The notes under the pieces: model-generated | What the model saw: only the letters and a program-made list of their open reading frames with translations | Database searches by the model: none | Told to the model about the DNA's origin: nothing | Assembly: GCF_040530035.1 (NCBI RefSeq) | Contig: NZ_JBEWCD010000001.1 | Location: forward strand, 1,302,001 to 1,366,000 | Direction of reading: 5' to 3' | Origin: Roseibium sp. HPY-6 | Lineage (GTDB): Bacteria > Pseudomonadota > Alphaproteobacteria > Rhizobiales > Stappiaceae | DNA: 64,000 nucleotides | Shown here: positions 59,621-62,890 of the stretch, piece after piece | Position numbering within the stretch: position 1 is the stretch's first letter | Layout of the letters: every line of letters begins with the position of its first letter | Translations under genes and position numbers: made by a program

Positions 59621-59703
59621 GCCGTCCAGGACCTGATCCGGGACGTCTCTCGTTCGCCACCGACAGGCCCCGGCTCAAGAGAGGGCGGCAACATTTTTGG
59701 CCA
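59621..59703 (+). repeat. REP-like palindromic element, type B (copy 1)
   Basis: Two palindromes in a row, of the form 'CCGTCC.GGAC..GATCCGGGAC' and 'GGCCCCGGCTC...GGCGGCAACATTT'. This copy has a damaged second stem (AAGAGAGGG instead of AAGGCCGGG). It is the first of the series that runs to about 62.9 kb. Confidence 0.7.
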
Positions 59704-59726
59704 CCTTGATACCTCAAGCATTGTTA

Positions 59727-59757
59727 GTCATCCCCGACTTGATCGGGGATCCAATCC
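59727..59757 (+). repeat. Palindromic element, type A (unit 1, left end)
   Basis: GTCAT, CCCCGA, CTTGA, TCGGGG, ATCC and AATCC. Forms a 6-bp GC-rich stem with a 5-base loop. 15 bases before the first GIY-YIG gene. Confidence 0.85.
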
Positions 59758-59772
59758 ACGCAACAACCGGGT

Positions 59773-60060
59773 ATGGCGTTTTTCGTCTACATCCTCGCCA
59801 GCCGCCAGCGCGGGACCCTTTACACCGGCGTGACCAATGACCTGGCGAGACGGGTGCATGAACATCGGGAAAAAACTGGTAGCGCGTTTACCCGGCGCTA
59901 CGGTGTCACCCGCTTGGTTTACTACGAAACTTTCGACACTCCGGATACAGCCATCGCCCGCGAGAAGCGTCTCAAACGCTGGCCAAGGGAATGGAAGGTG
60001 CAGACAATTGAGAAGTTTAATCCGGAGTGGCGGGATCTCTATGAAGACCTGAACCGCTGA
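59773..60060 (+). CDS. GIY-YIG nuclease-family protein, copy 1
   Basis: 95 residues, a single GIY-YIG catalytic domain (UPF0213/YhbQ-like size). Residues expected for catalysis are present: FVYILAS (the GIY strand), GTLYTGVTNDLARRVHEHR (YTG for YIG and the conserved Arg), TAIAREKRLKRWPREWK with the metal-binding Glu, and a C-terminal FNPEWRDLY with the Asn. It is framed by inverted copies of the type A palindrome and has an almost identical copy 726 bases on. It may nick DNA; the link with the repeats is inference. Confidence 0.87.
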   Translation: MAFFVYILASRQRGTLYTGVTNDLARRVHEHREKTGSAFTRRYGVTRLVYYETFDTPDTAIAREKRLKRWPREWKVQTIEKFNPEWRDLYEDLNR

Positions 60061-60079
60061 TTTGAATTTGCGGGCAGGT

Positions 60080-60110
60080 GGAATGGATCCCCGATCAAGT
60101 CGGGTATGAC
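60080..60110 (-). repeat. Palindromic element, type A (unit 1, right end, inverted)
   Basis: Inverted copy of the element at 59727, with the variant CCCGACTTG and one substitution in the stem (GGGTATGAC). 20 bases after the first GIY-YIG gene. Confidence 0.82.
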
Positions 60111-60134
60111 CTTGAGTATAGATTTCAATGCCCT

Positions 60135-60446
60135 GCCCCAAAAGCGCGCTGTCCCGAACCTCTTTGGTTCGCCGCCAGTAGGCCCCGGCTCAAGGCCGGG
60201 GCGGCAACATTTGTGGGGAAACTGCGTTGCTTCAAAACGTGCCGTCCCGGACTCGATCCGGGAACTTTCTCGTTCGCCGCTGATTGGCCCCGGCTTAAGG
60301 CCGGGTCGGCAACATTTGTGGGGAGACTGCGTTGCTTCAAAACGTGCCGTCCCGGACTCGATCCGGGACCTCTCTCGCTCCCCTCCGGCAGGCCCCAGCT
60401 CGAGACCGGGGCAGCGACATTTGTGGGGAGACTGCGTTACCCAGGC
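60135..60446 (+). repeat. Array of three type B elements, about 104 bp each
   Basis: Copies at about 60135-60238 (lacking about 14 bases), 60239-60342 and 60343-60446. Each has the palindrome TCCCGGA, CTCGA, TCCGGGA, then GGCCCCGGCT.AAG.CCGGG, then GGCAACATTTGTGGGGA and ACTGCGTT. The copies differ at scattered positions, so they are not recent slippage products alone. Confidence 0.82.
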
Positions 60447-60452
60447 ACGTTT

Positions 60453-60483
60453 GTCATCCCCGACTTGATCGGGGATCCAATCC
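60453..60483 (+). repeat. Palindromic element, type A (unit 2, left end)
   Basis: Identical to the element at 59727 and followed by the same 15 bases up to the second GIY-YIG start. Confidence 0.85.
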
Positions 60484-60498
60484 ACGCAACAACCGGGT

Positions 60499-60786
60499 AT
60501 GGCGTTTTTCGTCTACATCCTCGCCAGCCGCCAGCACGGGACCCTCTACACGGGTGTCACCAATGACCTGGCAAGACGGGTGCATGAACATCGGGAAAAA
60601 ACTGGTAGTGCGTTTACCCGGCGCTATGGTGTGACCCGCTTGGTTTACTACGAAACCTTCGACACTCCGGATACAGCCATCGCCCGCGAGAAGCGTCTCA
60701 AACGCTGGCCAAGAGAATGGAACGTGCAGACAATTGAGAAGTTTAATCCGGAGTGGCGGGATCTCTATGAAGATCTCAACCGTTGA
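60499..60786 (+). CDS. GIY-YIG nuclease-family protein, copy 2
   Basis: 95 residues, differing from copy 1 only at residue 13 (H for R) and residue 75 (N for K). All catalytic-type residues are kept. At DNA level the two genes differ at 15 positions, 13 of which are silent. The upstream 46 bases are identical, and the downstream about 160 bases are nearly so, including the inverted type A element. It is therefore a duplicated unit, not just a duplicated gene. Confidence 0.87.
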   Translation: MAFFVYILASRQHGTLYTGVTNDLARRVHEHREKTGSAFTRRYGVTRLVYYETFDTPDTAIAREKRLKRWPREWNVQTIEKFNPEWRDLYEDLNR

Positions 60787-60805
60787 TTTGAATTTGCGGG
60801 CAGGT

Positions 60806-60836
60806 GGATTGGATCCCCGATCAAGTCGGGGATGAC
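60806..60836 (-). repeat. Palindromic element, type A (unit 2, right end, inverted)
   Basis: Inverted copy with a perfect stem (CCCCGA...TCGGGG), 20 bases after the second GIY-YIG gene. Confidence 0.85.
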
Positions 60837-60870
60837 CTTGAGTATAGATTTCAATGCCCTGCCCCAAACT

Positions 60871-60965
60871 GTGCTGTCCCGGACCTCTTTGGTTCGCCGC
60901 CAGTAGGCCCCGGCTCAAGGCCGGGGCGGCAAGATTTGTGGCCGCCTTCTTGCCCCAAGCACGTT
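60871..60965 (+). repeat. Type B element (after unit 2)
   Basis: Matches the short type B copy at 60135 (TGTGCTGTCCCGGACC, GGTTCGCCGCCAGTAGGCC, CCGGCTCAAGGCCGGGG), again with the about 14-base gap in the first palindrome. Confidence 0.78.
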
Positions 60966-60966
60966 T

Positions 60967-60996
60967 GTCATCCCCGACTTGATCGGGGATCCACTC
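60967..60996 (+). repeat. Palindromic element, type A (solitary)
   Basis: GTCATCCCCGACTTGATCGG then GGATCCACTC; same stem as the bracketing copies but with no nuclease gene after it. Could be a remnant or a new insertion. Confidence 0.82.
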
Positions 60997-61224: not shown

Positions 61225-61719
61225 TCACGAGTGACAGAGATTCACATCTCGTGCACTTGGCGCGTCGCAGGTTTGCCGGTTCTGCAGCGCGTGGGCGTCT
61301 TCCCGGTAGTCGGAAATGCACGCCGAAAGCGACAGGTACAGCTTCTTGAAGCCTGATGCCGGCGAGTAACCGGCGCGAAGGTGCGCGCCCTTCAGTTCAA
61401 AAGGAACGCTCTTCTCCTCGCCGTCGGTCATCGACGTCACGACCCGTTGGTGGCTCGAATACTTCCCGGGCAGCATGACTGTTGTCATCGCCTTTGCCTG
61501 ACAGGCGCAAATGGAAACAGGCACGGACTTGTCAGTGATCTTGAGGCGCATGCCCGAGACATGTTCATCGCAGGCCGTGTAAGCGGCGAATTGTGCCTCA
61601 TCAAGATCATGATCCGTCATGATCCTGGCGATTTCGGCCTGCCTGTCCTGATGAACGCCAAAGGCCAACCAGAGGATCACTCCGACAAAGCCCAAAGCAA
61701 AATAACCCTTGAGCGGCAT
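61225..61719 (-). CDS. Membrane-anchored Cys-containing protein, unknown (paralogue 1)
   Basis: 164 residues: an N-terminal helix (YFALGFVGVILWLAFGV) as anchor, then an exported domain with the pattern 'D..EaqfAAY.aCd..vSG', 'VPvSICACQAK.M..VMLPGKYSSH.R.V.S.T.GE' and three more C-terminal Cys (SACISDYRED, QTCDAP, VNLCHS). Not a known family to me. GGAGA before ATG 61719. The gene upstream on the same strand is a clear paralogue, so the pair arose by tandem duplication. Confidence 0.7.
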   Translation of the reverse strand: MPLKGYFALGFVGVILWLAFGVHQDRQAEIARIMTDHDLDEAQFAAYTACDEHVSGMRLKITDKSVPVSICACQAKAMTTVMLPGKYSSHQRVVTSMTDGEEKSVPFELKGAHLRAGYSPASGFKKLYLSLSACISDYREDAHALQNRQTCDAPSARDVNLCHS

Positions 61720-61802
61720 GACTTTCTCCAAAACTCAATCAGAAACCGAATGAAGCGATCTACGTAGGGCCACGTGCATTAGCAAAGCAGTTGGCCCAAA
61801 TC

Positions 61803-62324
61803 TCAAGACCGGCACAGATGGGTGTCACGTGAATCGGGAGAGTTACAGATTTTCCGGATGGTCTCCCGCTGCTGCGCCTCTCGCTCAACACGATAGTCGG
61901 AAATACAACCCAGAAGTGATCGCTGCAGCTTTGTAAAAGCGACCGAAGGCGAATAGCGGGCAACCACCTGGGTTTCAATCAGTTCCGTGGGCGTATCTTT
62001 TTCGCCGTTGGTGATCGACTTAACAATGCGCCTGTGGCTCGAGTATTTCCCCGGCAGCATGACCTTGACCATTTCCTTTGCCTGACAGGCACAGATCGAA
62101 ATCGGCACAGACCCGTTGAAAACTTTGATATTCGGGTTCTTCGGATTGAGCTGTTTGCCGGACATCTGACTGTCGCAGGCCTTGTAGGCGGCAAGTTGAA
62201 CCTCATCGAGATTATGCTCTTCGATAACCTGGGCAATTTCAGCGTGCCTTTTTTCGTAAACGCCAAATGCAATCCAGACGATCACACCCATAAAACCAAT
62301 CGCAAAATAATTTTTGAGAGACAT
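61803..62324 (-). CDS. Membrane-anchored Cys-containing protein, unknown (paralogue 2)
   Basis: 173 residues with the same layout as paralogue 1: anchor helix (YFAIGFMGVIVWIAFGVY), CDSQMSGKQL, VPISICACQAKEMVKVMLPGKYSSHRRIVKSITNGE, and C-terminal GCISDYR, KICNSPDS and HLCRS. Extra residues (NPKNPNIKVFNG) separate the first two Cys. GGAG before ATG 62324. All Cys positions are shared by the pair, suggesting disulfides or metal binding in the periplasm. Confidence 0.7.
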   Translation of the reverse strand: MSLKNYFAIGFMGVIVWIAFGVYEKRHAEIAQVIEEHNLDEVQLAAYKACDSQMSGKQLNPKNPNIKVFNGSVPISICACQAKEMVKVMLPGKYSSHRRIVKSITNGEKDTPTELIETQVVARYSPSVAFTKLQRSLLGCISDYRVEREAQQRETIRKICNSPDSRDTHLCRS

Positions 62325-62702: not shown

Positions 62703-62890
62703 AATAGGCCGTTCCGGACTCGATCCGGCACCTCTCTGGTTTGCCGCCGGCAGGCCCCGGCTCAAGGCCGGAGCGGCAACATTTGTGGCGTGACTACGTT
62801 GCCGCAACCGATGCGCCGTCCCGGACCTGATCCGGGACCTCTTTGGTTCACCTCTGAAAGGCCCCGGCTCAAAGCCGGCGCGATCACTGG
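62703..62890 (+). repeat. Two type B elements in tandem
   Basis: First copy from TAGGCCGTTCCGGACTCGAT (62706) with GGCCCCGGCTCAAGGCCGG and GCGGCAACATTTGTGG; second from GCGCCGTCCCGGACCTGATC (about 62811) with GGCCCCGGCTCAAAGCCGG. No GIY-YIG gene here. Confidence 0.75.

Follow-up and report, generated by a model that had tools for sequence, protein, structure and literature searches.

In the bacterial units called REPtrons, a small nuclease gene, encoding a RAYT (TnpA-REP) protein of the Y1/HUH type, stands between inverted, tagged palindromes of its own family, the GTAG class of repetitive extragenic palindromes (REPs), which the enzyme cuts in single-stranded form. According to the accessible parts of PMC3733652 and PMC8266576, these enzymes are repeat-specific, copies without a gene are dispersed in the genome and the tag sits at the foot of the hairpin. 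The CGTC-tagged REPs, as far as the accessible part of Di Nocera et al. 2013 (PMC3733652) goes, occur in five phyla, had no enzyme assigned in that survey and apparently lack a dedicated transposase. They are defined there by an unpaired terminal CGTC (or TGTC, CCTC) at one end, a stem of 8-9 bp with terminal AT pairs, a loop of 4-5 nt and a CCA-like tail, and Neisseria dRS3 and Rickettsia RPE-4/RPE-6 are counted among them. A further trait of these REPs is the pair with outward-pointing tags (HH). Here we analyse a locus in a 64-kb stretch of the genome of Roseibium sp. HPY-6 (64,000 nucleotides, hereafter the window), in which each of two GIY-YIG nuclease genes lies between inverted palindromes that, judged by their sequence, are CGTC-type REPs. 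Like a REPtron, the locus joins a small nuclease gene to inverted palindromes with a tag at the foot of the hairpin, its enzymes go with particular repeats, and copies that carry no gene are scattered in the genome. The differences are that the GIY-YIG fold (PF01541) is unrelated to Y1/HUH and that the tag is GTC/GAC, with no GTAG; a search of the window's genome for the Y1 transposase family PF01797 gave 0 matches. No title joining GIY-YIG genes to REPs was found among the matches listed in open-licence full text, a collection that leaves out most subscription papers and all of bioRxiv.

The first gene of the window (59773..60060, + strand, 95 aa, PF01541 at 1e-16) is preceded by a REP termed type A (59727..59753, +), which consists of a GTC tag, an 8-bp stem (ATCCCCGA and TCGGGGAT) around the 5-nt loop CTTGA, and a CCA tail. 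It is followed by the same palindrome in inverted orientation, with one stem mismatch and the GAC tag pointing outward (60084..60110, -). The second gene (60499..60786, +, 95 aa, PF01541 at 1.8e-16), whose product is 98% identical to that of the first, has a type A REP upstream (60453..60479, +) and a perfect inverted copy downstream (60810..60836, -), and an additional type A REP (60967..60993, +) lies 130 nt past the latter. The palindrome cores are at 59730-59750, 60456-60476 and 60970-60990 in the + orientation and at 60087-60107 and 60813-60833 in the inverted one. Each gene is thus bracketed by inverted GTC-ATCCCCGACTTGATCGGGGAT-CCA, with the tags outward and the tails inward. The first-pass annotation, made from the letters of the window alone, had described two 95-aa GIY-YIG genes between inverted type A palindromes, which stands, and gaps of 15 and 20 nt, which do not: for both genes the palindrome lies 22 nt before the ATG and 26 nt after the stop codon. 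Allowing 2 mismatches, a search of the window finds type A cores at 59.7-61.0 kb alone. The palindrome shares with the CGTC REPs, in the available part of the 2013 survey, the 8-bp stem with AT pairs at its ends, the loop of 5 nt, the CCA tail and the GTC of the tag; what differs is the link to a nuclease gene and the variable base before GTC, the tag being present in 5/5 window copies and preceded by T, T, A, G and G. In the 7.03-Mb genome (8 contigs), type A occurs 10 times when 3 mismatches are allowed, and a broader CGTC pattern 33 times. The reversed-pattern control gave 0 in both cases; at 33 copies against 0, the repeat is therefore not a product of chance.

The window protein contains PF01541 as its single Pfam domain and keeps the residues Y, Y, R, H and E, which we take to be the catalytic residues of GIY-YIG proteins. 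The predicted fold of copy 2 (structure model with pLDDT 93) is closest to Slx1, a nuclease that cuts 1-3 nt from branch points, and its sequence matches 1zg2 and 1ywl. In size, domain, these matches and nearest fold it resembles the UPF0213 or prokaryotic Slx1-like proteins, which, in the accessible part of PMC1564403, have no C-terminal Asn and were predicted to act in DNA repair; in contrast to that prediction, the proteins here are tied to repeats and have several paralogues per genome. N83 is invariant in the A1 and A3 groups of our proteins and is a candidate only for the Asn discussed in PMC1564403. The two window proteins match 0 families in NCBIfam, have 0 matches in PADLOC and find a single weak, unnamed family in PHROGs, and phage records yielded 5 weak matches of less than 40% identity.

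We then asked how often such genes stand between inverted repeats. The first set comprised 164 loci, 158 of which were scored: 141 cases (a few of them broken genes) drawn from the window's genus and class, 14 loci initially taken as controls, and three low-scoring ones (L189, L190, L207). Left out were three loci without a central gene (L058, L204, L205), L193, which repeats L005, and two with short flanks (L090, L184). The flank score is that of the best ungapped alignment (+1/-2), in inverted orientation, of the 250 nt on one side of the gene with the 250 nt on the other; we use a strict score of at least 18 and a looser score of 12. As control genes served 222 mechanical open reading frames (ORFs) of at least 80 aa from 20 arbitrary stretches in 20 of the same genomes. 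The strict score was reached by 61/141 genes of this type, compared to 24/846 mismatched flank pairs, 0/222 other ORFs (Fisher 4e-30) and 0/55 ORFs with spacers of at least 60 nt, confirming that these genes lie between inverted repeats more often than expected by chance. It was reached by 24/49 genes inside the genus and by 37/92 outside. The earlier annotation had regarded the link as endangered if most genes of this type were unflanked; by the strict score the flanked genes are indeed a minority, whereas the looser score finds 102/141 flanked, against 2/222 other ORFs. We consider the association of these GIY-YIG genes with palindromes almost certain.

Direct matches are equally frequent (62/141), because palindromes match both ways, and the orientation is read from the tags. 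The nearest tagged palindromes, at any distance, have both tags outside in 54 of 99 two-sided loci, the other arrangements accounting for 17, 15, 12 and 1; adjacent palindrome pairs that do not bracket a gene have tags outside in 56 cases versus inside in 61. In 52 clean units the median distance is 22 nt from palindrome to start and 22.5 nt from stop to palindrome, and the base before GTC is C in 24, T in 24 and G in 4. As a second set we scored 80 loci of named genomes, mostly alphaproteobacterial (7/80 being the same DNA as first-set loci); 35/80 reach the strict score, compared to 12/636 mismatched pairs. Among its 23 loci titled with another or no group, many of them metagenome-assembled genomes, six reach 18: Desulfobacteraceae, Omnitrophota, Planctomycetota, Smithella, Dehalococcoidia (with a repeat that is not of the CGTC kind) and one unassigned bacterium. 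In Bacteroidetes, Parcubacteria, Ignavibacteria, Bacillota and others the gene is present and the score of 18 is missed.

Within the window's genus, a comparison of 60 proteins shows that GIY-YIG clades carry different palindrome families. The window's own cluster has the flank motif CGGGGATGAC in 16/25 members and in 2/35 proteins outside it. The ETLYTG clade has AGATCCGGGA (7/10; 0/50 outside), the FWVYILA clade ATCCATGCCG (5/7; 0/53), the GGTLYVG clade AAGACCGGGA (5/7; 1/53) and the VYILRC type ATCCTTCGAG (8/8; 0/52). These motifs were picked from the top 10-mers of each clade and are hence partly selected. Less prone to selection is the count of near-flank 12-mers shared by pairs whose far flanks are non-homologous: such a 12-mer occurs in 208/375 same-clade pairs and in 118/1342 different-clade pairs. 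Of the paralogues in the genome of Roseibium sp. HPY-6, L003, L004 and L008 adjoin other palindromes, whereas L005 and L006 have none by the stem test, L005 lying within a CATCCTTCGAGAC repeat. The VYILRC-type genes had been intended as a negative control and were dropped since, to our surprise, they are bracketed in the genus by a palindrome family of their own; other genes were therefore taken as controls. Outside the genus, pieces of the VYILRC motif stand on both sides in 8/18 newly located loci (L319 was not located), and the flanks of a further VYILRC-type locus (L206) contain no motif pieces. Two loci with other kinds of GIY-YIG gene (L194, L200) score 7 and 9. The VYILRC type with its own palindrome amounts to an independent replicate of the window's case.

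If gene and repeat belong together, their numbers should go together as well. We sampled 289 alphaproteobacterial genomes, with one to three per family, and 82 of them match the window's GIY-YIG type strongly (protein E <= 1e-15; A1 profile E <= 1e-29). At least 5 CGTC repeats of the pattern GTCATNCCN{10,13}GGNATCC occur in 48/82 genomes with the gene and in 19/207 without it (Fisher 1e-17), a direction kept in five size bins. The VYILRC type was called present in 30 genomes (A2 E <= 1e-24), G339 (4e-22) being excluded because its match is a first-type gene; the corresponding repeat, TTCGAGACN{12,20}CTCAGGATGA, is found in 26 genomes, namely in 17/30 with the gene versus 9/259 without (2e-13). 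The raw cross-associations between gene types and repeats have p values of 0.001 and 0.0008. In a joint model that includes genome size, however, the strong terms are those that link a gene type with its own repeat (z 6.9 and 5.7). The cross-terms are weak (z 1.1 and 1.2), and Y1_Tnp predicts neither repeat (z 0.5 and 0.6). In families that differ in the first-type gene, repeats go up with it in 19, down in 6 and are tied in 5 (n=30, within-family permutation p 0.002); for the second-type gene the counts are 10 up, 0 down and 6 tied (n=16, p 0.002), and the within-family cross terms give p 0.30 and 0.24. Thus, repeat number tracks gene presence, and the alternative that had been raised, of repeats equally common in genomes without the gene, is not borne out. 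Mere shared ancestry as the source of this link is made less likely by the within-family permutation and by the non-syntenic pairs.

Several observations suggest that gene and palindromes move as one. In several pairs of units at different places, the common DNA begins near the GTC tag and gives out near the GAC tag. For instance, L050 and L056 share 46 nt before the start and 50 nt after the stop, which is where the tags of L050 end; L257 and L258, on one contig and 617 kb apart, are 90% identical over 404 nt. Occupied and empty sites were also found. The sufB-sufC interval of Azospirillum lipoferum 4B holds a unit flanked to left and right by palindrome pairs; the interval is without it in A. 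ramasamyi, A. oryzae, Azospirillum sp. B510 and A. thermophilum. In Sphingobium plasmids a unit lies between fnrL and a response regulator gene in seven records, with the gene in two pieces in one of them. At the same spot TomTYG64 has one palindrome, tagged at either end, TomTYG74 an imperfect palindrome, TomTYG72 no palindrome and TomTYG65 a different palindrome without a tag. In Sinorhizobium meliloti Ak57 pSymB a truncated unit (palindrome, 3' GIY-YIG remnant, inverted palindrome) precedes a whole one, and in Sinorhizobium sp. K101 a single palindrome with tags CTC and GAC replaces the truncated unit, with no gene there. Double-tagged palindromes are otherwise rare (1/485 tagged palindromes in the loci); they may have been left behind when a unit collapsed, or mark the place where one enters. 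The unit of Shinella WSC3-e has no counterpart at the corresponding place in Shinella H4-D48, which is too diverged for the edges to be read. In contrast to an insertion sequence or miniature inverted-repeat transposable element with target duplication, the units show a direct repeat of at least 3 nt in 0/52 clean cases, where shuffling expects 0.85 at 3 nt. A search for the empty site of the window's unit matched its neighbour gene (61225-61731) in only 2/41 genomes, its own and a weak one, and 19 locus pairs, many of them too diverged, contained no clean case of a single-REP insertion or deletion.

We favour the reading, which we hold to be probable, that the locus is a REPtron-like mobile unit driven by a structure-selective, Slx1-like GIY-YIG nuclease, for which we infer cleavage and transposition; the nuclease would, with similar probability, also spread the repeats. 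The unit GTC-palindrome-CCA, GIY-YIG gene, TGG-palindrome-GAC would then be a small mobile element in which GIY-YIG replaces the Y1 (HUH) RAYT. Its nuclease would, as the clade-palindrome pairing suggests, recognise palindromes of its own family in hairpin or cruciform form. The nick might fall some 3 nt from the base of the hairpin on its 3' side, where, on both strands, the GTC/GAC tag has its outer edge. We infer this position from the cut positions of Slx1 and the observed unit ends, and propose the exact site tentatively, as somewhat less likely than not. Once freed or copied, a segment would be pasted or copied into another site by host repair, without target duplication; it could be the whole unit or two palindromes with tags outside and no gene. 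The scattered genomic REPs would be its non-autonomous offspring, and the VYILRC type would act likewise on another palindrome family. The first-pass annotation had likened the locus to a REP/RAYT unit and cast the GIY-YIG nuclease in the RAYT role. The association, the clade pairing, the unit ends near the tags and the occupied and empty sites support and extend this proposal, with the cutting of palindromes and the movement as its presumed part.

Several points weigh against this reading. In many other unit pairs the common DNA is the gene alone, and the Azospirillum sufB-sufC spacer is too diverged to give an exact insertion point. The Sinorhizobium allele concerns a truncated unit, and support for bracketing outside Proteobacteria is thin; each of these two lowers our confidence in the mechanism slightly. 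Moreover, 19 genomes without the gene have at least 5 CGTC repeats, one of them 142, and 23 gene-bearing genomes have 0-1 repeats of the searched pattern. Such exceptions may reflect repeats that outlive the enzyme, assemblies that break at repeats, or a pattern limited to CC/GG stems. In the genome with 142 repeats (G337), where no GIY-YIG gene of this type was detected, several repeats lie at contig ends, and the gene is possibly on a lost piece of the assembly.

Among the alternatives, homing is unlikely, if worth keeping in mind. Here the REP would be target rather than cargo: a homing endonuclease gene would be copied into a cut palindrome, giving two tagged halves, with the palindromes spread by other means. 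GIY-YIG homing endonucleases of the I-TevI type do share the catalytic fold, and their genes, too, are present in some alleles only. However, both brackets are complete palindromes and not halves, the Azospirillum empty alleles and one Sphingobium allele have no palindrome, and the double-tagged target is rare. In addition, the 95-aa, one-domain protein has no extra DNA-binding domain or tail, and its gene lies outside any intron or coding gene, bracketed by palindromes. We likewise think it improbable that the nuclease has a house-keeping function, trimming or resolving REP cruciforms at replication, so that palindrome-rich genomes retain a matching enzyme. The correlation of gene and repeat numbers fits this, as does a closest fold that is a structure-selective repair nuclease, but it leaves unexplained why the gene is bracketed by its own palindrome family, why units end near the tags and why presence/absence alleles exist.

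It is very improbable that the palindromes serve the gene as operators or terminators, for autoregulation or insulation, and resemble REPs by coincidence. The median distances before start and after stop would suit mRNA hairpins, but the same palindromes occur elsewhere without the gene, and two terminators do not require the outward tags seen on two sides. We give even less credence to passive neighbourhood, in which small dispensable genes and REPs collect in the same intergenic spots: type B (see below) and other repeats do cluster near some genes, but none of the control ORFs, spaced ones included, reaches the strict score, and neither the clade-specific pairing at non-syntenic sites nor the double association is expected. 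Finally, that Y1 transposases (RAYT or other IS200-like) move the repeats in trans, with GIY-YIG incidental, is the least likely of all: PF01797, found in 58/289 genomes, is weakly associated with CGTC repeats in the raw counts (20/58 vs 47/231, p 0.036), an effect that vanishes once GIY-YIG genes are in the model (z 0.48), the window's genome has no such gene, and the accessible part of Di Nocera et al. 2013 (PMC3733652) reports no tyrosine transposase gene flanked by CGTC sequences. Two genomes (G171, G201) have 12 and 13 PF01797 matches, with 0 and 4 CGTC repeats of the searched pattern.

A broader claim, which we rate as just short of probable, is that small Slx1-like GIY-YIG proteins are a previously unrecognised REP-mobilising class. 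Its several clades, in several phyla, would each have their own palindromes and act independently of Y1. They would be the enzymes so far lacking for the CGTC REPs, Neisseria dRS3 among them, would nick at the tag some 3 nt from the foot of the hairpin, and would spread units as well as gene-less pairs. If true, parasitism of the REP type has at least two origins, with nucleases that are unrelated, and a function is suggested for the widespread 'GIY-YIG nuclease family protein' type. A candidate enzyme with a testable cut site is now available for CGTC REPs, and natural negative pairs (wrong clade, wrong palindrome) as well as occupied and empty alleles are at hand in alphaproteobacteria that lend themselves to laboratory work.

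Named replicons add individual cases. A plasmid collection held 37 records with a match, and the flanks of 11, and then of two more, were examined. The gene has CGTC-like palindromes around or beside it in Azospirillum lipoferum, Novosphingobium aromaticivorans pNL2, Sphingobium TomMM7A, Shinella WSC3-e, Rhizobium sp. CIAT894 and S. meliloti pSymB. Aeromonas caviae has one on each side of the gene, the second with a changed tag. In a chromosome-sized record of Neisseria gonorrhoeae, the CGTC-like palindromes at the GIY-YIG gene look like dRS3, as that repeat is named in the available part of PMC3733652. Among the 11 records, no clear bracket was seen in Rhizobium tumorigenes, Planktothrix agardhii and Spirosoma oryzicola. 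On plasmid p1 of P. agardhii (L333) the gene has a type IIL restriction-modification gene (MmeI) on one side and DISARM drmA on the other, and is surrounded by short TGTCATTCTGAG-type repeats. On the CIAT894 plasmid (L338) 242 nt separate the GIY-YIG gene from an IS4-family transposase gene upstream. Two records filed as plasmids (L329, NZ_CP119140.1; L332, NZ_AP026896.1) measure 2.2 and 4.9 Mb and are chromosome-like.

The window's locus also contains a tandem duplication of 300 nt, made of a REP and most of the gene (59723..60022, +; second copy 60449-60748), with a period of 726 nt and 96% identity. Between the genes lies a cluster of type B palindromes, GTCCCGG..CCGGGAC and GGCCCCGG..CCGGGGCC, in three 105-nt tandem copies (60152..60466, +; 100, 88 and 66% identical to the first), and a related stretch (66%) spans 60877-60981. 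More type B palindromes, with no GIY-YIG gene between them, follow at 62710..62880 (no strand assigned). Genome-wide, the GTCCCGG form occurs 10 times, in one case next to a more distant GIY-YIG paralogue. Next to the repeat cluster are tandem paralogous genes (61225-61731 and 61803-62324) that are nearly without relatives in the 41 genomes. Elsewhere in the same genome (C1:971289-971563; L008, L009) a broken GIY-YIG gene adjoins palindromes such as GTCATGCCATGGCTTGACCATGGCATCC, and at the matching place an uncultured Roseibium (L274) has an open copy.
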